64,000 bases of DNA from Actinoplanes ianthinogenes (GTDB lineage Bacteria; Actinomycetota; Actinomycetes; Mycobacteriales; Micromonosporaceae). Below the pieces are notes generated by a model. The model did no database searches. It was not told the DNA's origin and was given only the letters and a program-made list of their open reading frames with translations. Both the position numbers and the translations under genes were made by a program. Below, piece after piece: positions 11,271 to 60,114 of the stretch. The DNA is taken from assembly GCF_018324205.1 (NCBI RefSeq), contig NZ_AP023356.1, positions 3,427,501 to 3,491,500 on the forward strand. The letters are read 5' to 3'. Every line of letters begins with the position of its first letter. Within the stretch, counting starts at the first letter, position 1.

Positions 11271-12533
11271 GTGAGCTACGACGTGGTCATCCTCGGCCTG
11301 GGATATGTCGGGCTGCCGCTGGCACAGCAGGCCATCCGGGCCGGGCTGTCGGTGCTCGGCTTCGACGTCGACGAGGCCGTGGTCAAGGCGCTCGGCAACG
11401 GCTGGTCGCACGTCGACGACCTGAGCGACGCCGACATCGCCGAGATGCTGGCCGGCGGGTTCCGGCCGACCAGCGACGAGACCGAGATCGCGCACGCACG
11501 GACCGCGGTGATCTGCGTGCCCACCCCGCTCTCCGAGGGCGACGGGCCGGACCTGCGGGCGGTCACCGGCGCGACCGGCTCGATCGGCCGCAACCTGCGC
11601 CCCGGCATGCTGGTGGTGCTGGAGTCGACGACGTATCCGGGCACCACCGACGACGTGGTCCGGCCGCTGCTCGAACAGCTCTCCGGACTGACCGCGGGGA
11701 TCGACTTCCACCTGGCGTTCTCCCCGGAGCGGATCGACCCGGGCAACGCGTCCTACGGCGCGCACAACACGCCGAAGGTGGTCGGCGGGTACACCGCGGC
11801 CTGCACGGACGCGGCGGCCGGGTTCTACGGGCGGTTCATCGAGCAGGTGGTGCGCACCCACGGCACCCGGGAGGCGGAGACCGCGAAGCTGCTGGAGAAC
11901 ACGTACCGGCACGTCAACATCGCGCTGGTCAACGAGATGGCCCGGTTCTGCCACGAGCTGGACATCGACCTCTGGGACGTGATCAACGCGGCGTCCACCA
12001 AGCCGTTCGGCTTCCAGGCGTTCTACCCCGGGCCGGGCGTCGGCGGGCACTGCATCCCGATCGACCCGAACTACCTCAGCCACAACGTGCGCAGCAAGCT
12101 CGGCTACCCGTTCCGCTTCGTCGAGCTGGCCCAGGAGATCAACGCGACCATGCCGGCGTATGTGGCCCGGCGCGCGCAGAACCTGCTCAACGCCGACGGC
12201 GAGGCGGTCCGCGGGGCGACCGTGCTGCTGCTGGGCATCACCTACAAGGCGAACATCGCCGACCAGCGCGAGTCGCCGGCCACCCCGCTGGCCCGGCAGC
12301 TGGCCGCGCTCGGCGCGACCGTCGCCTATCACGACCCGCACGTGCGCACCTGGGACGTCGCCGGGGTGCCGGTCTCCCGCGTCGACGACCTGGAGTCCGC
12401 GGTCGCCTCGGCCGACCTGGTCATCCTGGTCCAGAACCACCGCGAGTACGACGCCGACCACCTCGCGAGGATCGCCAAGCGCTTCTTCGACACCCGCGGC
12501 GTCACCACGATCCGCGAAGCACACCGGCTCTGA
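11271..12533 (+). CDS. UDP-sugar 6-dehydrogenase (UDP-glucose / UDP-N-acetylmannosamine type)
   Basis: Oxidises a UDP-hexose to the uronate with two NAD molecules. The N-terminal Rossmann motif is LGLGYVGLPLA, the catalytic cysteine is in GPGVGGHCIPIDPNYL, and the C-terminal UDP-binding domain contains LLGITYKANIADQRESPA. GTG 11271 has GGAG 6 bases upstream. The C-terminal sequence and 420-aa length resemble WecC/WbpA-like enzymes more than classical UDP-glucose dehydrogenases, so the product could be a UDP-N-acetylhexosaminuronate. It follows the Stealth gene and is the last gene before a repeat region. Confidence 0.92.
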   Translation: MSYDVVILGLGYVGLPLAQQAIRAGLSVLGFDVDEAVVKALGNGWSHVDDLSDADIAEMLAGGFRPTSDETEIAHARTAVICVPTPLSEGDGPDLRAVTGATGSIGRNLRPGMLVVLESTTYPGTTDDVVRPLLEQLSGLTAGIDFHLAFSPERIDPGNASYGAHNTPKVVGGYTAACTDAAAGFYGRFIEQVVRTHGTREAETAKLLENTYRHVNIALVNEMARFCHELDIDLWDVINAASTKPFGFQAFYPGPGVGGHCIPIDPNYLSHNVRSKLGYPFRFVELAQEINATMPAYVARRAQNLLNADGEAVRGATVLLLGITYKANIADQRESPATPLARQLAALGATVAYHDPHVRTWDVAGVPVSRVDDLESAVASADLVILVQNHREYDADHLARIAKRFFDTRGVTTIREAHRL

Positions 12534-12543
12534 CGATCACATT

Positions 12544-12675
12544 CTTCATGTACGCGGGCCCGGCGGGGTGCGGATCGCATGCTCCCGCGCGGGCCGGAGG
12601 CAGCGATCTGGCCGCTGGCGCGTCCAGGGCGATCGCTGCCTCCTTCACTGTCCGTGGGTGGTTCCGGAGATCAAA
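12544..12675 (+). repeat. 132-bp structured repeat block, copy 1
   Basis: This block is the same length as, and nearly identical to, the reverse complement of 59085-59216. The exception is a 12-bp inverted repeat (arms 12597-12608 and 12631-12642, GAGGCAGCGATC paired with GATCGCTGCCTC) around a 22-nt loop. The arm sequence differs from copy 2 but pairs perfectly. A second palindrome, CCCGCGCGGG, lies just before the 5' arm. It starts 11 bp after the dehydrogenase stop. A frame through it could be translated, but see the rejected list. Confidence 0.85.
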
Positions 12676-12935
12676 CCCCGGGCTGGCCCTGGTGGCCCTA
12701 TCCCGCCTCTTGAAAGGGCCGCCAGGACCAGCCGGACGGTCACGGGCTGGCGCTCAGAGGCCTATCCCGCGTGTTGATAGGGCCACCAGCACCAGCTCGA
12801 CAGTCACGGGCTGGCACTCAGAGCCCCGTCCCGCCACGGGATAGGGCCACCAGGACCAGCCGGACAGTCACGGGCTGGCACTCAGGGCCCTGTCCAGGCA
12901 CGGGACAGGGCCACCAGGGCCAGCCCGGCCGTTGT
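12676..12935 (+). repeat. Array of 64-bp two-hairpin units, copy 1
   Basis: About four degenerate units with markers at 12722, 12786, 12850 and 12914, an exact 64-bp period. Each contains an inverted repeat of the type CCAGCCGG...CGGGCTGG and a second one of the type GGCCCTATCC...GGATAGGGCC. In the last unit the second stem reads GGCCCTGTCC...GGACAGGGCC, a paired change. The array fills most of the gap before gtrA; 12936-13031 shows nothing recognisable. The same unit, inverted, forms the array at 58742-59085. Confidence 0.85.
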
Positions 12936-13031
12936 GCGTCGTGCTTTCGGGCCCTCGGCGCAAGCCGGGGCTGCGAGCGGCGGCTGCGACGGTGAGCGGG
13001 GACGCCGTGGCTCGGGAGCGGCGGGCGGTGG

Positions 13032-13457
13032 TCAGCGGGTGGCGAAGGTCCAGCGGGAGTTGAGGAAGTAGTTGACCAGCGGGATCAGGGTCAGGGCGAT
13101 CGGCTGGACGATCGGGTAGGGCACCGCGAAGACCTCGGTGCCGAGCCACAGCACCACCGTGTTGATGGTGAAGGCGACCGCGGTGACGATCAGGAACTTG
13201 GTGCCGGCGATCGCGTGGCCGGCCGTGGAGCGGAAGACCCACCAGCGCTGGAGCACGTAGGAGACCACGATGCTGGCGACGAAGCCGGCGGTCGAGGCGA
13301 GCACCGGTCGCAGGTGCAGCAGGTGGACGCCGAGCAGGCCGACGCCGAAATGGGTGAGTGCGCTGGCTCCGCCACTCACTCCATATCGGACCAGACGCAG
13401 CAACCGGGGATCACGCAGGATCGGCTGAACGCTGCTCCACCCACTGTTCCGGGACAT
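13032..13457 (-). CDS. GtrA family membrane protein
   Basis: A 141-aa protein with four predicted membrane helices and the GtrA pattern: LVRYGVSGGASALTHFGV near residue 20, FVASIVVSYVLQRWWVFRS, the AFTINTVVLWLG helix, and a C-terminal LVNYFLNSRWTFATR. GtrA proteins move lipid-linked sugars across the membrane and usually work with a GT2 glycosyltransferase. The start at 13457 (MSRNSGW) is the nearest ATG to the conserved part. Here the expected GT2 partner is reduced to a remnant directly upstream (see next feature). Confidence 0.88.
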   Translation of the reverse strand: MSRNSGWSSVQPILRDPRLLRLVRYGVSGGASALTHFGVGLLGVHLLHLRPVLASTAGFVASIVVSYVLQRWWVFRSTAGHAIAGTKFLIVTAVAFTINTVVLWLGTEVFAVPYPIVQPIALTLIPLVNYFLNSRWTFATR

Positions 13458-29000: not shown

Positions 29001-32000
29001 GTCGGCGCACCCGTCACGGTCAAACCGGACGTCAGGACCGAACCGGCACCGGTGGAAGCGTTGACCTTCCACAGGCTGCCCTCACCCGTCCACAGATAGG
29101 CGTAGCTGTCGTCGGCCGCGATCGCCGCGGTCGTCCGGTTGCCCATCGTGATGTTCACCTGGGTCGGCTTGGTGCCACCGGTCAGGTCGTAGCGCCACAG
29201 GTAGGCGTTGTCATAGAGGTAGAGCCACTTGCCGGCGATCGCGCCGAACCGCGCGTAACCGGTGAAGGTGCCCTGGCTGATCACGGTCGTCGTGGCGCCG
29301 TTGGCCGGGTCGATCCGCCGCACACCACACGAGTCGAGCAGGTAGACGAACCGGCCGTCGGACCCGATCACCTGGAGCGGGATGCTGTTCGCGTTGAACC
29401 GCACCTGCCCACCGGTCGACCCGTCCACGCAGCCGTACTCGGCCGCACCGGCGAGCACCGAGGAGGCGCCGGTGCTCTTGTTGACCTGCAACAGTTGCAG
29501 ACCCTTGTTGACATACGCGTACGAACCGATCACCGCGACGCCGTTGCTGCCACTGTCCAGAGCGGACGTGACGGTGCCGATCGAGCCGGCGTCCATCACC
29601 GGTGCGGTGGCGACGGCGGCCGGAGCTTTCGCGGTTGCCGACGTCAGCGTCTTGAGCCACGAACCATCACTGCCACGGTCGGCCAGGTAGAGCTTGGTGC
29701 CATCGCTGGCCATACCGGTGATACCGGACAGGCCGGTGGTGTCAGTGGCCGACGGCGACACGAGCAGGGTCGCGCCCGTGCTCTTGCTGATCCGCAGCAC
29801 CGTGGTGCCACGGGCCGGGCTCAGCACGTTGGCGAACGACGCGTACAGGTAGTCGCCGACCGACAGCATCGCTGTCGGCGCACCCGTCACCGTCAGTCCG
29901 GTGACGACGGCCGTGCCGGTGCCCGTGGTGTTGTCCGCGGCGACCTTCCACAGGGTGCCCTCGCCGGTCCACAGGTAGGCGTAGGTGTCGTCGGCCGCGA
30001 TCGCCGCGGTCGTCCGGTTGCCCATCGTGATGTTCACCTGGGTCGGCTTCGTGCCACCGGTCAGGTCGTAACGCCACAGGTAGGCGTTGTCGTACAGGTA
30101 CAACCACTTGCCCGCGATCGCACCGAACCGCGCGTAACCGGTGAAGGTGCCCTGGCTGATCACGGTCGTGGTCGCGCCGTTGGCCGGATCGATCCGCCGC
30201 ACGCCACAGGAGTCGAGCAGGTACACGAACCGGCCGTCGGAACCGATCACCTGGAGCGGGATGCTGTTCGCGTTGAACCGCACCTGCGCACCGGTCGACC
30301 CGTCGACACAGCCGTACTCGGCCGTGCCGGCCAGGACCGTGCTCGCCCCGGTCGCCTTGCTGATCTGCAGAAGCTGCAGACCCTTGTTGACGTACGCGTA
30401 CGAACCGATCACCGCGACGCCGTTGCTCCCACTGTCCAGAGCGCCGGTAACCGTGCCGATCGAGCCGGCGTCCATCACCGGAGCGGTGGCGACGGCAGCG
30501 GGAGCCTTCGGGGTGGCTGACGTCAGCGTCTTGAGCCACGAACCATCACTGCCACGGTCGGCCAGGTAGAGCTTGGTCCCGTCGCTGGCCATACCCGTGA
30601 CGCCGGACAGGCCGGTGGTGTCAGTAGCCGACGGCGACACCAGCAGGGTCGCGCCGGTGCTCTTGCTGATCCGCAACACCGTGGTGCCACGAGCCGGGCT
30701 CAGCACGTTGGCGAACGACGCGTACACGTAGTCGCCGACCGACAGCATCGCCGTCGGCGCACCCGTCACCGTCAAACCGGAGGTGAGCACGGAACCGGCA
30801 CCGGTGGAAACGTTGACCTTCCACAGGCTGCCCTCACCCGTCCACAGGTAGGCGTAGCTGTCGTCGGCCGCGATCGCCGCGGTCGTCCGGTTGCCCATCG
30901 TGATGTTCACCTGGGTCGGCGTACCGCCGGTGATCAGGTCGTAGCGCCACAGGTAGGCGTTGTCATACAGGTAGAGCCACTTGCCGGCGATCGCGCCGAA
31001 CCGCGCGTAGCCGGTGAAGGTGCCCTGGCTGACCAGGGTGGTGGTGGCGCCGCTCGCGGGGTCCACGCGGCGAAGACCGCAGGAGTCGAGCAGATAGACG
31101 AACCGGCCGTCGGACCCGACCACCTGGACCGGGATGCTGTTCGCGTTGAATCGCGCCTGGCTGCCCGCGGTCCCGTCGACGCAGCCGTACTCGGCCGCGC
31201 CCGCCACGACCGTGCTCGCCCCGGTGCTCTTGTCGAGCTGGAGCAGTTGCAGGCCCTTGGTGACATAGGCGTACGAGCCGATCACCGCGACGCCGTTGGT
31301 GCCGGCGTCCAGTGCGGAGTTGACGGTGCCGACCGAACCGGCGTCCATGATCGGAGCCGAGGCGACCGCGGCGAGGACGTCCCAGCGCACCGGCAGGGTG
31401 CCGGTGCGGCCGGCGGCGTCGGTCGCCCTGATCACCGGCTGGTAGACGCCGGATCCGGTCACGGTGCCGCTGATCGCGCCGCTGGCCGCGTCGATGGTCA
31501 GGCCACCGGGCAGGCCGGTCGCGCTCCAGGTGTAGGTCCCGCCGCCACCGGTCGCGGCGAAGGTCGCGCTCGCGGCCTGCTTCTCGATGCCGGTCTGGGT
31601 GCGCGGACCGGTCACGACGATCGGCGCGCTGACGTTCCAGTCGAAGGTCACCTTGTCGCTGCGGCCACCGTTGTCGGTGGCGGTCAGGGTGACCGTCCAG
31701 GTGGCCGGGGCGGTGAGGGTGCCCGAGACGACGCCGGCGGCGCTGATGCTCAGCCCGTCGGGGAGGCCGAGCGCGGACCAGGTGTAAACCCCGCTGCCGC
31801 CGGTGGCGGCCAGGGTGAGGTCGACGGCGGCACCGGTGACGCTGTTCTGGGCGCCCGGGCTGGTCACGACGACCGGGCCCTTGACGGTCAGGGCGAACGT
31901 GACGGTGCTGCTGCGCTGCGCGGCGTCGGTCACGGTGGCGGTGACCGGGTAGTCACCGGCCACGGCCGGGGTGCCGGAGACGACGCCGGCACTGCTGACG

Positions 32001-34033
32001 GTCATGCCGGTGGGCAGGCCGGTCGCGGTCCAGGCGTACGGCGCGGTGCCGCCGGTACCGGTCAGGGTGAGGGTGCCGGCGACGCCGGTGGTGGCGCTCT
32101 GGTTGCCGGGGTTGGTGGCCACCAGCGGCGTGGCGACGGTCCAGGTGAAGCTGACGGCGCTGGTGCGTCCGGCCGCGTCGGTGACGGTCGCGGTCACCGT
32201 GGCGGTGCCGGCCGTGGTGGGGGTGCCGGAGACGACACCGGCGGTGCTGACGCTGAGCCCGGCGGGCAGACCGGTCGCGGTCCAGGTGTACGGCGACGTG
32301 CCACCGGTACCGGCCAGGGTGAGGGTGCCGGCGACGCCGGTCGTCCCGTTCTGCGCACTCGGCTTCGTCGCGACCAGCGGGGTCGCGACGGCCCAGGTGA
32401 AGCTCAGGCTGGAGGCGCGCCCGGTGGCGTCGGTGACGGTGACCGCGACGGTGGAGCTGCCCGCGGTCGTGGGGGTGCCGGAGACCACGCCGGCGCTGCT
32501 GATGGTCAGCCCGGCGGGAAGGCCGGTCGCCGTCCACGTGTACGGGCTGGTCCCGCCGGTGGCCGCCAGCGTCTTGGAGACGGCGACGCCGGTGGTGCCG
32601 TTCTGCGTGCCGGGGTTGGTGATCGCCGGCGCGTTCGCGGTGACCCAGCTGAAGCTCGCCGTGGCCGTACGGCCACCGGCGTCGGTGAGGGTGACCGTCA
32701 CGGTGGAGGTCCCCGCCGTGGTCGCGGTGCCGGAGACGACGCCGGCGCTGCTGATCGTCAGCCCGGCGGGAAGGCCGGTCGCCGTCCACGTGTAAGGCGT
32801 CGTGCCACCGGTGCCGGCCAGCGTGAGCGTGCCGGCCTTGCCGACGGTGGCCTGCTGCGTGCCGGGGTTGGTGACGGCCGGTTGGGCGGCGACGGTGACG
32901 GTGAACGTGGCGGTGCCGGTGCGCTTCGCGGCGTCGGTGGCGGTGGCCGTCACGGTGGAGGTCCCGGCCGTGGTCGGCGTGCCGGAGACGACGCCCGCGC
33001 TGCTGATCGCCAGCCCGGCCGGAAGGCCGGTCGCCGTCCACGTGTACGGGCTGGTCCCGCCGGTCGCCGCCAGCGTCTTGGAGAACGCGGTGCCGACGGT
33101 GGCGTTCTGGGCGCCGGGGTTGGTCACCGCGGGCGGTACGGCGGTGACCCAGCTGAACGTGGCGGTCGCGGTGCGGCCGGCGGAGTCGGTCGCGGTCACC
33201 GTGACGCTGCTGGTGCCGGCCGTGGTGGGGGTTCCGGAGACCACACCGCTGGTGGCGTTGAGCGTCAGCCCGGCCGGCAACCCGGTGGCCGCCCACGTGT
33301 ACGGGCTGGTGCCGCCGGTCGCGGCCAGGGTGAGCGTGGCCGGCTGGCCGGTGGTGGCCTGCCGGGTGCCGGGATTGGTCACGGCGAGCGCGGCGGCCGC
33401 GACGCTCCAGGTGAACGTGGTGAAGCCGGGAATCTTGGCGGCGTCGGTCGCGGTCACCTTCGTGGTGAAGGTGCCGGCGGCGGTCGGTGTGCCGGTGATC
33501 GCGCCGGTCGACGAGTTGATCGCCAGGCCGGTCGGCAGCCCGGTCGCGGACCAGACGTACGGAGTCTTGGCTCCGGTGGCGGTCATCGCCTGATTGACGG
33601 CGACGTTGACGACCGAGGCCCGGGTGCCGGGATTGGTCACCGTCGCGGCGGTCCCGGTGGTCCAGCTGAACGCGGCACTACCGGCCAGCTTCGCCGAGTC
33701 GGTGGCGGTCACCTTCGCCGCGTACGTCGCGGCGGTTGTCGGCGTGCCGGAGATGACGCCGGTGGCGGCGTTGATCGTCAGGCCGGCGGGCAGCCCGGTG
33801 GCGGTCCAGGTGTACGGGCTCGTACCGCCCGTGCCGGCCACCGTCAGGCTGGTGGCGACACTGATGCCGCTGTACTGCGTGCCGGGATTGGTGACCACCG
33901 GCGAGGTGGCCGCCTCGGCCGCCGGAACGTCGATGAATCCGGCCAGCAACGTCGTCAGACAGACCATCACGTACGTCGTCGTGCGACGCCGCGCCCACGG
34001 CTGCGAAGCCGTTCTTACCCCGTGAATACTCAT
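23009..34033 (-). CDS. Giant secreted Rhs/YD-repeat protein with Ig-like and propeller modules and a C-terminal toxin-like tip
   Basis: A 3674-aa protein. Order of parts: a signal peptide (residues 1-41, RRRTTTYVMVCLTTLLAGF, cut after AAEA); ten Ig-like putative repeats (about 43-888) of about 84 aa with the core SPYTWTATGLPAGLTI; five near-identical modules of about 291-293 aa (about 889-2344) with DGRFVYLLDSCG and GKWLYLYDNAYLWRYDL; a DUF6531-type start (QQHGDPVNTDTGALTEPATD); about thirty YD repeats; the Rhs core with YLHQDRLGSVRLITG; and DPTGLCG near residue 3508. The last 165 residues are variable-type: a hydrophobic Gly/Ala stretch, then a basic tip with DNWFGYDKDREFVKWVHR and DMKRIFDRWVQLGKP. 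That tip is an unrecognised toxin-like domain. AAAGG precedes ATG 34033. Confidence 0.9.
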   Translation of the reverse strand: MSIHGVRTASQPWARRRTTTYVMVCLTTLLAGFIDVPAAEAATSPVVTNPGTQYSGISVATSLTVAGTGGTSPYTWTATGLPAGLTINAATGVISGTPTTAATYAAKVTATDSAKLAGSAAFSWTTGTAATVTNPGTRASVVNVAVNQAMTATGAKTPYVWSATGLPTGLAINSSTGAITGTPTAAGTFTTKVTATDAAKIPGFTTFTWSVAAAALAVTNPGTRQATTGQPATLTLAATGGTSPYTWAATGLPAGLTLNATSGVVSGTPTTAGTSSVTVTATDSAGRTATATFSWVTAVPPAVTNPGAQNATVGTAFSKTLAATGGTSPYTWTATGLPAGLAISSAGVVSGTPTTAGTSTVTATATDAAKRTGTATFTVTVAAQPAVTNPGTQQATVGKAGTLTLAGTGGTTPYTWTATGLPAGLTISSAGVVSGTATTAGTSTVTVTLTDAGGRTATASFSWVTANAPAITNPGTQNGTTGVAVSKTLAATGGTSPYTWTATGLPAGLTISSAGVVSGTPTTAGSSTVAVTVTDATGRASSLSFTWAVATPLVATKPSAQNGTTGVAGTLTLAGTGGTSPYTWTATGLPAGLSVSTAGVVSGTPTTAGTATVTATVTDAAGRTSAVSFTWTVATPLVATNPGNQSATTGVAGTLTLTGTGGTAPYAWTATGLPTGMTVSSAGVVSGTPAVAGDYPVTATVTDAAQRSSTVTFALTVKGPVVVTSPGAQNSVTGAAVDLTLAATGGSGVYTWSALGLPDGLSISAAGVVSGTLTAPATWTVTLTATDNGGRSDKVTFDWNVSAPIVVTGPRTQTGIEKQAASATFAATGGGGTYTWSATGLPGGLTIDAASGAISGTVTGSGVYQPVIRATDAAGRTGTLPVRWDVLAAVASAPIMDAGSVGTVNSALDAGTNGVAVIGSYAYVTKGLQLLQLDKSTGASTVVAGAAEYGCVDGTAGSQARFNANSIPVQVVGSDGRFVYLLDSCGLRRVDPASGATTTLVSQGTFTGYARFGAIAGKWLYLYDNAYLWRYDLITGGTPTQVNITMGNRTTAAIAADDSYAYLWTGEGSLWKVNVSTGAGSVLTSGLTVTGAPTAMLSVGDYVYASFANVLSPARGTTVLRISKSTGATLLVSPSATDTTGLSGVTGMASDGTKLYLADRGSDGSWLKTLTSATPKAPAAVATAPVMDAGSIGTVTGALDSGSNGVAVIGSYAYVNKGLQLLQISKATGASTVLAGTAEYGCVDGSTGAQVRFNANSIPLQVIGSDGRFVYLLDSCGVRRIDPANGATTTVISQGTFTGYARFGAIAGKWLYLYDNAYLWRYDLTGGTKPTQVNITMGNRTTAAIAADDTYAYLWTGEGTLWKVAADNTTGTGTAVVTGLTVTGAPTAMLSVGDYLYASFANVLSPARGTTVLRISKSTGATLLVSPSATDTTGLSGITGMASDGTKLYLADRGSDGSWLKTLTSATAKAPAAVATAPVMDAGSIGTVTSALDSGSNGVAVIGSYAYVNKGLQLLQVNKSTGASSVLAGAAEYGCVDGSTGGQVRFNANSIPLQVIGSDGRFVYLLDSCGVRRIDPANGATTTVISQGTFTGYARFGAIAGKWLYLYDNAYLWRYDLTGGTKPTQVNITMGNRTTAAIAADDSYAYLWTGEGSLWKVNASTGAGSVLTSGLTVTGAPTAMLSVGDYVYASFANVLSPARGTTVLRISKSTGATLLVSPSATDTTGLSGVTGMASDGTRLYLADRGSDGSWLKTLTSATPKAPAAVATAPVMDAGSIGTVPGALDAATNGVAVIGSYAYVNKGLQLLQVNKSTGASSVLAGAAEYGCVDGSTGGQVRFNANSIPLQVIGSDGRFVYLLDSCGVRRIDPANGATTTVISQGTFTGYARFGAIAGKWLYLYDNAYLWRYDLTGGTKPTQVNITMGNRTTAAIAADDSYAYLWTGEGSLWKVNASTGAGSVLTSGLTVTGAPTAMLSVGDYVYASFANVLSPARGTTVLRISKSTGTTLLVSPSATDTTGLSGVTGMASDGTRLFLADRGSDGSWLKTLTSATPKAPAAVATAPIMNAGVVTTVAGGFNYGSNGVALLGSFAYMTKGLQLMQVNKGTGTGTAIAGAAEYGCVDGSTGAQVRFNANSIPLQVIGSDGRFVYLLDSCGVRRIDPANGATTTVISQGTFTGYARFGAIAGKWLYLYDNAYLWRYDLTGGTKPTQVNITMGNRTTAAIAADDTYAYLWTGDGYLWKVNADTGAGTVMATGTGSAPSAMLSVGDYVYAAFTSYPSYRGVTLQRAGKSSGVVELVAGNMSSAPADGLYYDAGFAGITGLASDGTRLYVADSNSSGGWLRVIKKGKRPVDPGGPTLPGETTGGGNPAECIPCSQQHGDPVNTDTGALTEPATDLTVADRAGSLEMSRTYSSAGAGVNSVVGYGWAWPYGVTAQQNTGSSGTGTSGTGTDVIGTLVVRQENGSTATFSAKSTGSFAGAPRLQATAVKNADGTLTFARQNLTTMVFSAAGQLLRQVDVNGQTVSNTYDSAGRPTEITGDSGRKLRFTYDAAGYLASVTSPAGATVTYTHDADGNLTSVTDPTGAVTSYGYGAKHLLTKITNPAGGVTTNVYDESGRVIKQTDPLGRVITFGYVDGDEIGTSTVTITAGNGAKIVEQYLDGQLRSQTKAAGTADAATTTWDYDPNTGQPVMVTAPDGSTETYAYDSAGHRTSRTDALGRTTTWTYDAQGNELTATDPAGHTSSATYDTHGNQLTATDAAGGVRRWTYNADSTLDSETAADGTVIRYTYDAAGNRTGVTGPSRHTTTYGYNADGKVTSVTGPTGGVTTTALDGASRITKVVDPAGGVSRFAYDGSGRRTSETDAEGDVTTRGYDLAGQPVKVTDANGNSTTSAYDEAGQLTAATDQAGHTTRYEYDLRGNRVAEVDPLGRRTTYRYDLADRLLSTTLPSGATTSTTYDAAGEPVKSVDAKGKATTYTYDALGQMTATTDADGRTSVRTYTATGQPETATNPDGSTQRYTYDAAGHVLTFTDADGNKTAYTYDSAGREATRTAPGNLVTRYTYATDGSPDWVTTQPDGTTVTRTYNSAGRLARVDYSDPATADITFTYDAAGRRRTMTDGTGTTTYAYDAFGRLTATTDGAGNRVGLTYDAAGQLTGVTYPGGKTVTYTRDDAGQLTAATDWTGATTRFGWTADGQVATQTTPNGVVSTTTYDPNEQATDITVRKDGAVLGSYGYLYDDAGQIIGDRAGTEQHDYTYSGTAQLASTSTTAGTGSWADGAYTTTPGGALTGLPDGTKLAYNAAQQLTQGTGPGGAETAYTYDGNGNRLTGGAASYRYTSASSLAQVTTAAGTQVGYTTNGSGLRQTRTVGGTTERFVWAALDDLPVLLDDGTHLYLYGPGSTPYAQVSRDGTVEYLHQDRLGSVRLITGSTGAVVGTTTFDPYGNRTVHTGTADSRIGYTGNWTDPVTGLVYLRARDYDPATGQFVSVDPLVDVTRQPYSYVENNPLLMADPTGLCGFWCHVGTGTGIAVVVVAAAAVACAIAEPCGAIALGGLAVGEGLALAGGVAVSGAAIEAGAGAIALGAGAGAISGLWESRGSQWRDHDGDANDCPQRRGTKGKSHRGGKKSDRDNWFGYDKDREFVKWVHRVGKKAENGGDDIDTIEDMKRIFDRWVQLGKPKVK
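27005..31370 (-). repeat. Five near-identical 873-879 bp intragenic repeats (propeller-like modules)
   Basis: Within the Rhs gene, the codons for APIMDAG/APVMDAG recur at 31346, 30473, 29594, 28721 and 27848, giving spacings of 873, 879, 873 and 873 bp. The DNA is very similar between copies, especially in the three middle ones. This suggests recent duplication or gene conversion. The last module is shorter and most diverged (MNAGVVTTVAGGFNYGSNG) and ends at KKGKRPVDPGG. The repeated protein module has Trp/Tyr-rich strands consistent with a beta-propeller; the fold is inferred. Confidence 0.9.
31371..33930 (-). repeat. Ten tandem Ig-like (He_PIG-type) coding repeats
   Basis: Ten units of about 252-258 bp encode the pattern VTNPG...TLAATGGTSPYTWTATGLPAG...GVVSGTPTTAGT...VTATDAAGRT...FSW. 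The central units (4 to 7) are most alike and the first, second, ninth and tenth are more diverged. They form an extended stalk after the signal peptide. The repeats are in frame with the Rhs gene. Confidence 0.9.
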
Positions 34034-58600: not shown

Positions 58601-58656
58601 CGACCGGGACGGACGCCGACCGTGGTGGTGGGCGGAGACGAGGTGACGGGGTTGGT

Positions 58657-58684
58657 TTTGATCTCCGGAACCGACCGCGGACAG
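58657..58684 (-). repeat. Partial copy of the 132-bp repeat end
   Basis: These 28 bases (TTTGATCTCCGGAACCGACC and the next eight) are identical to the right-edge part of the 132-bp block at 59085-59112. Nothing else of that block follows here. Its orientation is the same as the full copy, so the 64-bp array between them is bracketed by the same edge. Confidence 0.8.
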
Positions 58685-58741
58685 GGAAGACATCCCATGT
58701 GCCAGGGGTGTCAAGCGGCTTGACCCGATCCACATCTGCCC

Positions 58742-59085
58742 AGGGCGCTGAGGGCCAGCCGAGGGGTGTCGGGCTGGTCCTAGTGGCCCTATCCGGGTGT
58801 GGGATTGGGCGTTGAGGGCCAGCCGGGGAGTGTCGGGCTGGACCTGGTGGCCCTATCCGTGAGTGGGATTGGGCGTTGAGGACCAGCCGAGGAGTGTCGG
58901 GCTGGACCTGGTGGCCCTATCCGGGTGTGGGATTGGGCGTTGAGGGCCAGCCGGGGAGTGTCGGGCTGGACCTGGTGGCCCTATCCGTGAGTGGGATAGG
59001 GCGCTGGGGGCCAGCCGGGGAGTGTCGGGCTGGACCTGGTGGCCCTATCCGGGAGTGGGATAGGGCGCTGGGGACCAGCCGGGGT
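58742..59085 (-). repeat. Array of 64-bp two-hairpin units, copy 2
   Basis: Five complete units and a partial one. The word GAGG(G/A)CCAGCC starts at 58750, 58814, 58878 and 58942, and the equivalent GGGGGCCAGCC and GGGGACCAGCC at 59006 and 59070, an exact 64-bp period. Each unit has a hairpin CCAGCC...GGCTGG and a second of the type GCCCTATCC...GGATAGGGC. The units alternate between two forms (loop GTGAGT or GGGTGT). Same unit as the array at 12676-12935, opposite orientation. Confidence 0.88.
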
Positions 59086-59216
59086 TTGATCTCCGGAACC
59101 GACCGCGGACAGTGAAGGGTGGGCTGATCGTCCTGGACGCGCCAGCGGCCAGATCAGCCCGCCCGGCCCGCGCGGGAGCATGCGATCCGCACCCCGCCGG
59201 GCCCGCGTAAATGAAG
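59085..59216 (-). repeat. 132-bp structured repeat block, copy 2
   Basis: Reverse complement of this block aligns with 12544-12675 over its full length. The 12-bp arms (59118-59129 and 59152-59163) pair in 11 of 12 positions around a 22-nt loop. Loop and flanks are nearly the same as in copy 1, the arms are not. The ATG found at the start of copy 1 is ATT here. Confidence 0.85.
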
Positions 59217-59259
59217 ATCTTGAAAGTCTGGCGACGTCGGCCGCCGCTCGGGGATCGGC

Positions 59260-60114
59260 TCAGGCGTGCGGGAGGCGCGGCCGGGGCTGGCAGCGGGGGC
59301 AGCTGAAGCTGGAGCGGTTCATGAAGCTCTCGCGGCGGATCGGCGCGCCGCAGCGACGGCACGGCTCGCCCTCGCGGCCGTAGGCGTTCAGCGACCGGTC
59401 GAAATACCCGCTCTCCCCGTTCACGTTCACGTAGAGCTCGTCGAAGCTCGTCCCGCCGGCCACGATCGCCTCGGCGAGCACGTCCCGCACGTGCCCCAGC
59501 AGCCGCGTCACCGCGGGCCGGGTCAGTTTGTCGGTCGGGCGGGTGCCGTGCAGTTTCGCGCGCCAGAGCGCCTCGTCGGCGTAGATGTTGCCGACGCCGG
59601 AGATCAGGCTCTGGTCGAGCAGGGCCCGCTTGATCTCGGTGTGCCGGCCGCGCAGCCGGGCCGAGAACGCCTCGTCGTCGAAGAGCGAGTCCATCGGGTC
59701 GCGGGCGATGTGCGAGATCTCGCCGGGCAGTTCGGCGCCGCCCTCGGACACCGACAGGCCACCGAACGTGCGCTGGTCGACGAAGCGCAGCTGCGGGCCG
59801 CCGTCGGTGAACGTGAAGCGGACCCGCAGGTGCTTCTCGTCCTCGGCGTCGGCCGGCTGCATCAGCAGCTGGCCGCTCATGCCGAGGTGGGCGATGATCG
59901 CGTCGCCGGAGTCGAGCGGCAGCCACAGGTATTTGCCGCGGCGGGACACGTCGAGCACGGTGCGGCCGGCGAGCACGTCGCTGAAGTGCGCGTCACCGGG
60001 CAGGTGGCGGCGGATCGCCCGCGGGTGGCGCACCTCGGCGGTGGCGATCGTGCGGCCGGTCACCCACTTGGCCAGTCCCATCCGGACGGTCTCGACCTCG
60101 GGAAGCTCAGGCAA
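59260..60114 (-). CDS. mutM: Formamidopyrimidine-DNA glycosylase MutM (Fpg)
   Basis: Removes 8-oxoguanine and formamidopyrimidines from DNA. It begins [20 protein letters not shown] with the catalytic Pro2 and Glu3, continues to [20 protein letters not shown], and ends with the zinc finger [20 protein letters not shown] followed by CPRCQ. All four zinc cysteines are present. Length 284 aa is typical. It lies 10 bp downstream of the PIG-V gene on the same strand. Confidence 0.97.

Follow-up and report, generated by a model that had tools for sequence, protein, structure and literature searches.

We describe a dispersed repeat of about 125-135 bp, composed of two hairpins and a short tail, that lies outside genes and mostly close to their 3' ends, and that is restricted to the genus Actinoplanes within the samples searched. 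We interpret it as a new REP-like family, recognised in the form of a folded single strand. In the interpretation that we favour, with a probability of slightly under one half (about 0.48), hairpin 2 of this genus-specific element is recognised as its folded minus strand through a bulge and the apical loop, and its stem acts as a spacer helix. The evidence includes the arms of hairpin 2, which vary between copies and covary, and the mismatches that they tolerate, which are G.T, G.G and G.A and almost nothing else, so that the folding strand can be read from sequence alone.

The two window copies and the family in the genome

The window, by which we mean the whole stretch of 64,000 nucleotides that was analysed (positions 3427501-3491500 of the single contig of 9,897,806 bases that makes up genome G000, Actinoplanes ianthinogenes), contains two copies of the element. 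The initial annotation had aligned 12544-12675 on the plus strand end to end with 59085-59216 on the minus strand, and both this alignment and the pairing of the arms are confirmed: in copy 1 the arms GAGGCAGCGATC/GATCGCTGCCTC (12597-12608 / 12631-12642) pair at 12 of 12 positions around a 22-nt loop, and in copy 2 the arms GGCGGGCTGATC/GATCAGCCCACC (59152-59163 / 59118-59129) pair at 11 of 12 around a loop of the same length, the sole mismatch being C.A as read and a G.U pair on the opposite strand. The presence of two inverted copies, as first described, is real but understates the family, which is large: a loop pattern finds 83 places in G000 (46 on the plus strand, 37 on the minus strand), all with at most two mismatches, and the covariance model R1 finds at least 84 copies. 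The reversed loop, used as a control, matches two places at up to three mismatches and none at up to two. A 161-bp BLAST query, of whose 208 first-look candidates 40 were scored, matches at least 40 places, the window copies included, with alignments of 127 bases or more and identities of 84% upwards. The similarity among the copies is far beyond chance. Loop variants escape the pattern: the 83 places include neither the BLAST place at 7102317 nor the copy at 3531769, whose loop has lost one nucleotide. The same deletion in the otherwise conserved loop occurs in the related genome G010, at 451649 and 440466, and in 13 of the 18 matches listed for G060, which span 55 bases instead of 56 (e.g. 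C1:8438377-8438431).

Copy 1 of the element (12544-12679) reads tail, hairpin 2 and hairpin 1 in minus-strand order, and its start is 10 bp past the stop codon of the open reading frame 11271-12533, which we take to be UDP-glucose-dehydrogenase-like. Hairpin 1 (12557-12595) is GC-rich, contains an inner triloop stem and gives mixed evidence as to strand. Hairpin 2 (12596-12643) consists of a variable, covarying stem, 12596-12608 with 12631-12643, around a conserved apical part, and the tail module (12643-12679, assigned like hairpin 2 to the minus strand) reads CTTCACTGTCCG...GGTTCCGGAGATCAAACCCC on the plus strand. An array of 3.6 copies of a 64-bp palindromic unit adjoins it (12695-12925). 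Copy 2 (59085-59216) has the opposite orientation, and the folded strand of its hairpin 2 (59118-59163) is the plus strand of the window; it lies 43 bp past the stop of the minus-strand frame 59260-60114, presumably mutM-like, and adjoins an array of 5.3 of the 64-bp units (58743-59084), beyond which stands a second, isolated tail module (58654-58689). The likeness of the two window copies extends into these arrays. The unit itself follows the palindromic plan GGCTGG...CCCTATCC...GGATAGGG...CCAGCC, and such arrays are found at many loci, mixed with isolated tail modules.

Alignments of the copies reveal a common plan, which on the plus strand runs from a gene end through an AT-rich stretch (GATCAAGATC...TTCAT), hairpin 1 and hairpin 2 to the tail, followed in many G000 copies by an array of 64-bp units. 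Further along some arrays the tail module occurs again by itself, with no hairpins, so that the whole is a mosaic. Three open frames (12160-12777, 12548-12844 and 59045-59926) cross the element in the window and might enter annotations as the ends of proteins (GCGSHAPARAG...), and the family may explain open frames that cross such blocks elsewhere. The window also includes a 2.2-kb array with a 252-bp period at 31717-33903, which is probably a gene for a repeat-domain protein and unrelated to the element. Rfam models gave no match in the window at their gathering scores and, at E values up to 1, only sub-threshold matches of no use in 12500-12950; a scan for tRNA and tmRNA found none, a promoter and terminator scan of 12400-13100 gave no sites, and searches of an open-access library showed no account of this repeat in Actinoplanes.

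The copies have a fixed orientation relative to the ends of genes. With genes called by a codon-usage gene caller trained on G000, 82 copies could be placed (one of the 83 pattern places was dropped through an identical key), and none of them lies inside a called gene. The gene on the side of hairpin 1 is co-oriented with the element in 62 of the 82, and its stop is at a median distance of 28 bp (range -22 to 652). Among the 80 copies with both neighbours called, 43 lie between convergent genes, 34 between tandem genes (16 between two minus-strand and 18 between two plus-strand genes) and 3 between divergent genes; in a reference 400-kb stretch of G000, which includes some copies, 60 of 326 junctions are convergent and 59 divergent. 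Of the 43 convergent cases, 38 have the hairpin-1 end as the nearer of the two, and where neighbouring copies are separated by less than 10 kb, they are arranged as +/- in 9 of 10 cases. This placement, outside genes, downstream of coding regions and at convergent or co-directional junctions, is that of REP-like repeats. The half of the genome proximal to the origin (dnaA at 4.709 Mb) holds 58 of the 83 copies, and no orientation bias relative to the replication fork is seen (44 of 83 run with it). We considered the +/- pairs as ends of composite elements and rejected this idea; the pair at 3354287/3356771 of G000 encloses an array and a transposase gene that we take to be IS256-like, and the pair at L118 encloses GC-rich tandem repeats. 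The former pair lies in a 2.7-kb convergent intergenic region (L187, G000:C1:3354177-3356889) with two elements, the transposase gene and a long palindromic array, the equivalent of which in G010 measures 47 bp.

Covariation and folding strand of hairpin 2

To assess the pairing of hairpin 2 across the family, we used a gap-free alignment (A1) of 56 columns, written on the minus strand, that holds the 116 distinct hairpin-2 sequences among 144 matches, after removal of spurious matches (L061, L062, L065, L074), matches with more than two mismatches, two copies in another register (L126, L078) and duplicates. The structure tested has 16 outer and 6 apical pairs. In these 116 copies 90.9% of the stem cells are paired, as compared to 75.3% when the 3' letters are shuffled and 28-41% when the partner is slid; 15 of the 16 outer pairs are changed on both sides (11.3 in shuffles), as are 312 cells (74 in shuffles), and the covariation score reaches 0.392, with 0.115 in shuffles. 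Not one of 500 shuffles reaches the observed pairing, both-side changes or covariation score. The test does not take phylogeny into account, and related copies can exceed shuffles without any structure, yet the slid control, which retains the relatedness, gives far lower values. The six apical pairs are invariant in all 116 copies and, since they never vary, uninformative by themselves. A structure-blind scan for co-variation with average-product correction, based on 123 rows from which IS-disrupted, N-holding and short copies had been left out, returned stem pairs as its top five, each 89-100% Watson-Crick; hairpin 1 is not among the clear pairs of that scan.

The mismatches that remain in the stem of hairpin 2 are strongly asymmetric between strands. 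Columns 4-16 are fully Watson-Crick in 27 of the 116 copies, and the remainder have almost only mismatches that contain G. On the minus strand, the 171 non-Watson-Crick cells among 1508 in these columns are G.T (115), G.G (36), A.G (19) and A.C (1), which on the plus strand read A.C (115), C.C (36), C.T (19) and G.T (1). G.T, G.G and G.A belong to the more stable mismatches in nucleic acids. The copies share ancestry and the 171 cells are thus not independent; among distinct column/pair mismatch events, 24 of 25 have G on the minus strand. The hairpin of the minus strand is also predicted to be the more stable one in 116 of 116 copies, with RNA as well as with DNA parameters. Outside the stem, C on the minus strand changes 2.4 times as often as G (0.063 versus 0.0265), but this bias is far below 170:1 and cannot produce the asymmetry of the mismatches. 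That 170 of the 171 cells hold G on the minus strand indicates that it is this strand of hairpin 2 that folds.

The folded minus strand has an apical part made up of a 4-nt bulge that starts with G, a UGG/CCA helix, an A.G mismatch, a CGC/GCG helix and a GYCA loop, the loop variants being CGCCAG in 91, CGTCAG in 24 and CGCCGG in 1 of the 116 copies. As far as can be judged from the letters, the mismatch and apical data would fit RNA and single-stranded DNA alike for the folded strand; a stable DNA tetraloop motif was considered as an argument for single-stranded DNA and dropped, as no literature support for it was found. Hairpin 1 is less uniform. Its inner stem agrees with folding of the minus strand (A.C on the plus strand in 21 and 14 of 66 copies), but one outer pair disagrees, with T.G on the plus strand in 52 of 66. 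In addition, among 32 rows from other genomes, 14 have GTAG on the plus strand at the foot of hairpin 1, as compared to 0-2 in control stretches of the same rows, and so do 20 of 20 copies from genome G034 (L313-L327 among them). The type found in the window lacks this GTAG, and 2 of 82 G000 rows have GTAG at that place in other contexts. The GTAG of the other Actinoplanes suggests that hairpins 1 and 2 may be read on opposite strands.

These results bear on the initial proposal that the hairpin itself is selected, which further copies with variable but paired arms would favour and copies with unpaired arms would contradict. The proposal holds up: the arms vary and still pair across the 116 copies, and no intact copy among them has unpaired arms. 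We regard the covariation of hairpin 2 as a sign that selection keeps one strand foldable. Two parts of the proposal have to be modified. The stem exists, but folding concerns the strand complementary to that which had been read, and the arms do covary, but between orthologous sites they often change as whole paired blocks, together with the type of tail, so that much of their variation looks like exchange with a different copy rather than like stepwise compensatory change in place. Since the mismatch spectrum marks the folding strand, the form and the recogniser of REP-like repeats, an old question, become testable with a few oligonucleotides.

Distribution within Actinoplanes and history of the sites

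In a search of the whole genus, model R1 matches 47 of 67 Actinoplanes genomes, with copy numbers that range from none to at least 84: G000, G010 and G060 have at least 84 each, G014 has 60, G243 53, G023 48 and G034 35, with no more than 84 candidates scored in any one genome. A family-wide sample of 300 genomes from 44 genera, which includes these 67, has all of its 47 matching genomes in this genus and none among the other 233. In a sample of 396 genomes from the phylum, the only matches besides the window's own genome are two weak, overlapping, two-strand matches in one genome, which we take for a chance palindrome; these many-genome searches, in which at most 18 candidates per genome were scored for the family and 14 for the phylum, used stricter filters that lose weak matches. 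Exact matches to the loop in a collection of named genomes comprise 14 stretches, all from Actinoplanes (A. palleronii, liguriensis, rectilineatus, siamensis, regularis and cyaneus). Within the samples searched, the element is thus shown to be restricted to the genus. With 67 genomes that differ so widely in copy number, that share some sites and have lost others, and that include what seems to be a recent burst, a protein that moves or uses the element can be sought by correlation.

The genomes G000, G010 and G060 are collinear, with about 91% identity over the stretches compared, which permits individual sites to be followed. At the 3' end of dapB the pattern is found in 4 of 30 orthologues, namely in G000, in G060, in G010, where the copy is split by an IS, and as a second subtype in the partly masked G032; by eye, G016 has a related sequence of the second subtype, and the G023 flank (L236) holds what looks like a decayed element (GATCACGATCATCATGTCG...CTGATCGCTGCCCC). 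The occupation of this site in several species implies that part of the pattern is vertical retention, which may reflect a function at the gene end. At mutM, where one of the 30 orthologues offers no more than 140 bases of flank, the pattern is found in two, G000 and G010; G060 lacks the element there. The dapB and mutM ends of G060 carry other palindromic arrays. At a further site, G000 has 6 bp between two stops (placed by eye) where G010 and G060 hold the element. At nine shared sites the arms range from equal through slightly altered to exchanged in both halves, often together with a different type of tail; at dapB, for example, G000 and G060 have GGCGGGCT and G010 has AGGGCGGC. This exchange of arms as paired blocks, often along with the tail type, resembles what replacement by a different copy or a new insertion at that site would leave, and any claim that compensatory changes arise quickly in situ is limited accordingly.

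In G034, the 20 copies fetched are near-identical outside the arms over about 125 bp, and their flanks are unrelated, which indicates that the element has dispersed within that species. Both ends of the G034 element are T-rich on the minus strand, and the minus-strand 3' flank has T at 0.40 and A at 0.16. As to a target-site duplication, which would be expected of a MITE, a comparison confined to one fixed register detects none in G034 (own-flank repeat 5.05 versus 5.02 in shuffles), while the G000 flanks have a slight excess of shared words (5.24 versus 5.04), a value that 4 of 100 shuffles attain.

In the relative G010, the element is a recurrent landing site for an insertion sequence of the IS110 family (PF01548, PF02371). 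Of the 23 copies fetched (rows L140-L159, L070 and L085, out of 46 pattern places with at most two mismatches), 14 contain the IS with one common right-hand junction, located in hairpin 1; its left-hand junction was read at two sites, and its gene lies at L162:11884-13101. The window copies do not contain this IS. It is a guest of the element and not its mobiliser. One G010 copy (L159) has a short scar, GGATCGCTAAGTAGCGCGGGCC, in hairpin 1, as if an IS had departed.

Proposed mechanism and comparison with known systems

We propose that a protein recognises the folded minus strand of hairpin 2 by its bulge and apical loop, the stem mattering to it only as a helix of suitable length, in which case the arms could drift or be swapped so long as they remain paired, and that copying or recombination through the folded single strand, be it DNA or RNA, would have spread the element to the 3' ends of genes. 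Against this reading stand the search for a mobilising enzyme, which found none (no Y1 transposase in G000, no copy of the element at 21 Y1 loci of relatives, no reverse transcriptase domain in G010 or G023), the occupation of the dapB site in several species, the mixed strand signals of hairpin 1, the slight excess of shared words in the G000 flanks and the even orientation relative to the replication fork. A more far-reaching version, which we consider doubtful, is that the element represents a new class of mobile repeat with strand-specific recognition through a bulge-and-tetraloop head on a sequence-free stem, with a mobiliser that is neither a Y1 protein (RAYT/IS200) nor a reverse transcriptase, and with a fixed orientation at gene 3' ends.

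The main rival to this interpretation holds that the element is a cis-acting RNA boundary at gene 3' ends, the hairpins of which stop or process antisense transcripts from the convergent neighbour, with a host function under selection and spread as a secondary matter. Such transcripts would carry the folded minus strand shortly ahead of their antisense entry into the gene. This is rather unlikely in our estimation, although it would account for the fixed orientation with the hairpin-1 end a median of 28 bp past the stop, for the greater proximity of that end in 38 of 43 convergent cases, for the +/- arrangement in 9 of 10 cases of copies less than 10 kb apart, for the retention at dapB in several species and for the T-rich minus-strand 3' flank in G034. 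It fits poorly with the 16 of 80 copies between two minus-strand genes and the 18 of 80 between two plus-strand genes, and with mutM, where the element is found in 2 of 30 orthologues; moreover, 12400-13100 contains no intrinsic terminator, that is, no hairpin followed immediately by a T tract, and about 10 nt (by eye) separate hairpin 1 from the T-rich tract, unlike in an intrinsic terminator. The element could, alternatively, be a variant of the GTAG REPs mobilised by RAYT proteins, the transposase having been lost from G000 or residing elsewhere in the genus. Several features speak for this idea: the element is extragenic, palindromic and strand-specific, lies 3' of genes and serves as an IS110 landing site, and 14 of 32 other-genome rows as well as all 20 G034 copies have the GTAG at hairpin 1. 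A Y1 transposase domain (PF01797) was detected in 8 of 36 genomes, G010 among them, the set being searched without G034 and G023 and the control being positive in 5 of 14. We nevertheless hold it to be improbable: the window's type is without the GTAG, G000 has no Y1 candidate, and the element is absent from the fetched flanks of 21 Y1 loci of genus members (best E 0.93), so that no cognate Y1 transposase, either in G000 or flanked by the element, was found.

Arms could also stay complementary without selection if each were repaired from its partner, through hairpin template switching or through conversion between arms or copies, and the arms at orthologous sites do often differ as paired blocks drawn from the same repertoire, often along with the tail type. 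Such repair is strand-blind, however, and should leave A.C as often as G.T, for which the minus strand shows 1 versus 115, with no C.C, C.T or T.T at all; it also leaves the invariant apical pairs and loop unexplained. The asymmetry thus disfavours neutral palindrome repair as the sole cause, and we see little chance that it suffices. A SINE-like spread by reverse transcription of a folded RNA would agree with the structured folded strand, the location at 3' ends and the lack of target duplication in G034, but the copy-rich genomes G010 and G023 have no match to a reverse transcriptase (RVT_1), of which G000 has one, and by eye the G034 alignment contains neither an A-tail nor a truncation series; we consider this origin very improbable. 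A search for IS91-type Y2 proteins gave no matches in these genomes and none in the control genomes, and is hence uninformative.

Recognition as a folded single strand has a precedent in the attC sites of integrons, which are recombined as folded single strands and have stems of variable sequence. Unlike attC, the Actinoplanes element has a conserved rather than a variable apical loop, and no cassette arrays were seen. The closest likeness is to REP and BIME repeats with RAYT proteins (GTAG type), with which the element shares high copy number, extragenic palindromes at gene 3' ends, mosaic arrays, one special strand, mismatches in the stem and, in part of the family, GTAG on the plus strand at the foot of hairpin 1. 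REPs are described as lying mostly 3' of genes, between convergent or co-directional genes, with a RAYT-type unit of 20-40 bp (PMC3733652), and the y REP of E. coli as having conserved mismatches and an AA-GC bulge in the stem, with only one strand recognised when folded (PMC8266576). The Actinoplanes element differs in its length, which at 125-135 bp with two hairpins and a tail lies outside 20-40 bp, in the arms of hairpin 2, which vary and covary around a conserved apical loop, in a folding strand opposite to the one with GTAG, and in the lack of GTAG in the window's type. Given the different size, the absence of a Y1 candidate from G000 and of the element from 21 Y1 loci of genus members, and a GTAG that is missing from the window's type and present elsewhere in the genus, we call it a REP-like family and do not claim membership in the RAYT REPs. 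The CGTC-tagged REPs include families without a dedicated transposase and have stems of 8-9 bp and loops of 4-5 nt (PMC3733652). By eye, the folded strand of most G034 copies has CGTC (or GGTC) ahead of hairpin 2, one base off the place next to the stem, but the window's type is without it, and the stem of 16 bp with a 6-bp apical part is larger. REPs are also known as targets of IS110-family insertion sequences (PMC1525189), and like the REP targets of IS621 and ISPpu9/10, the Actinoplanes element receives an IS of this family, in its hairpin 1.
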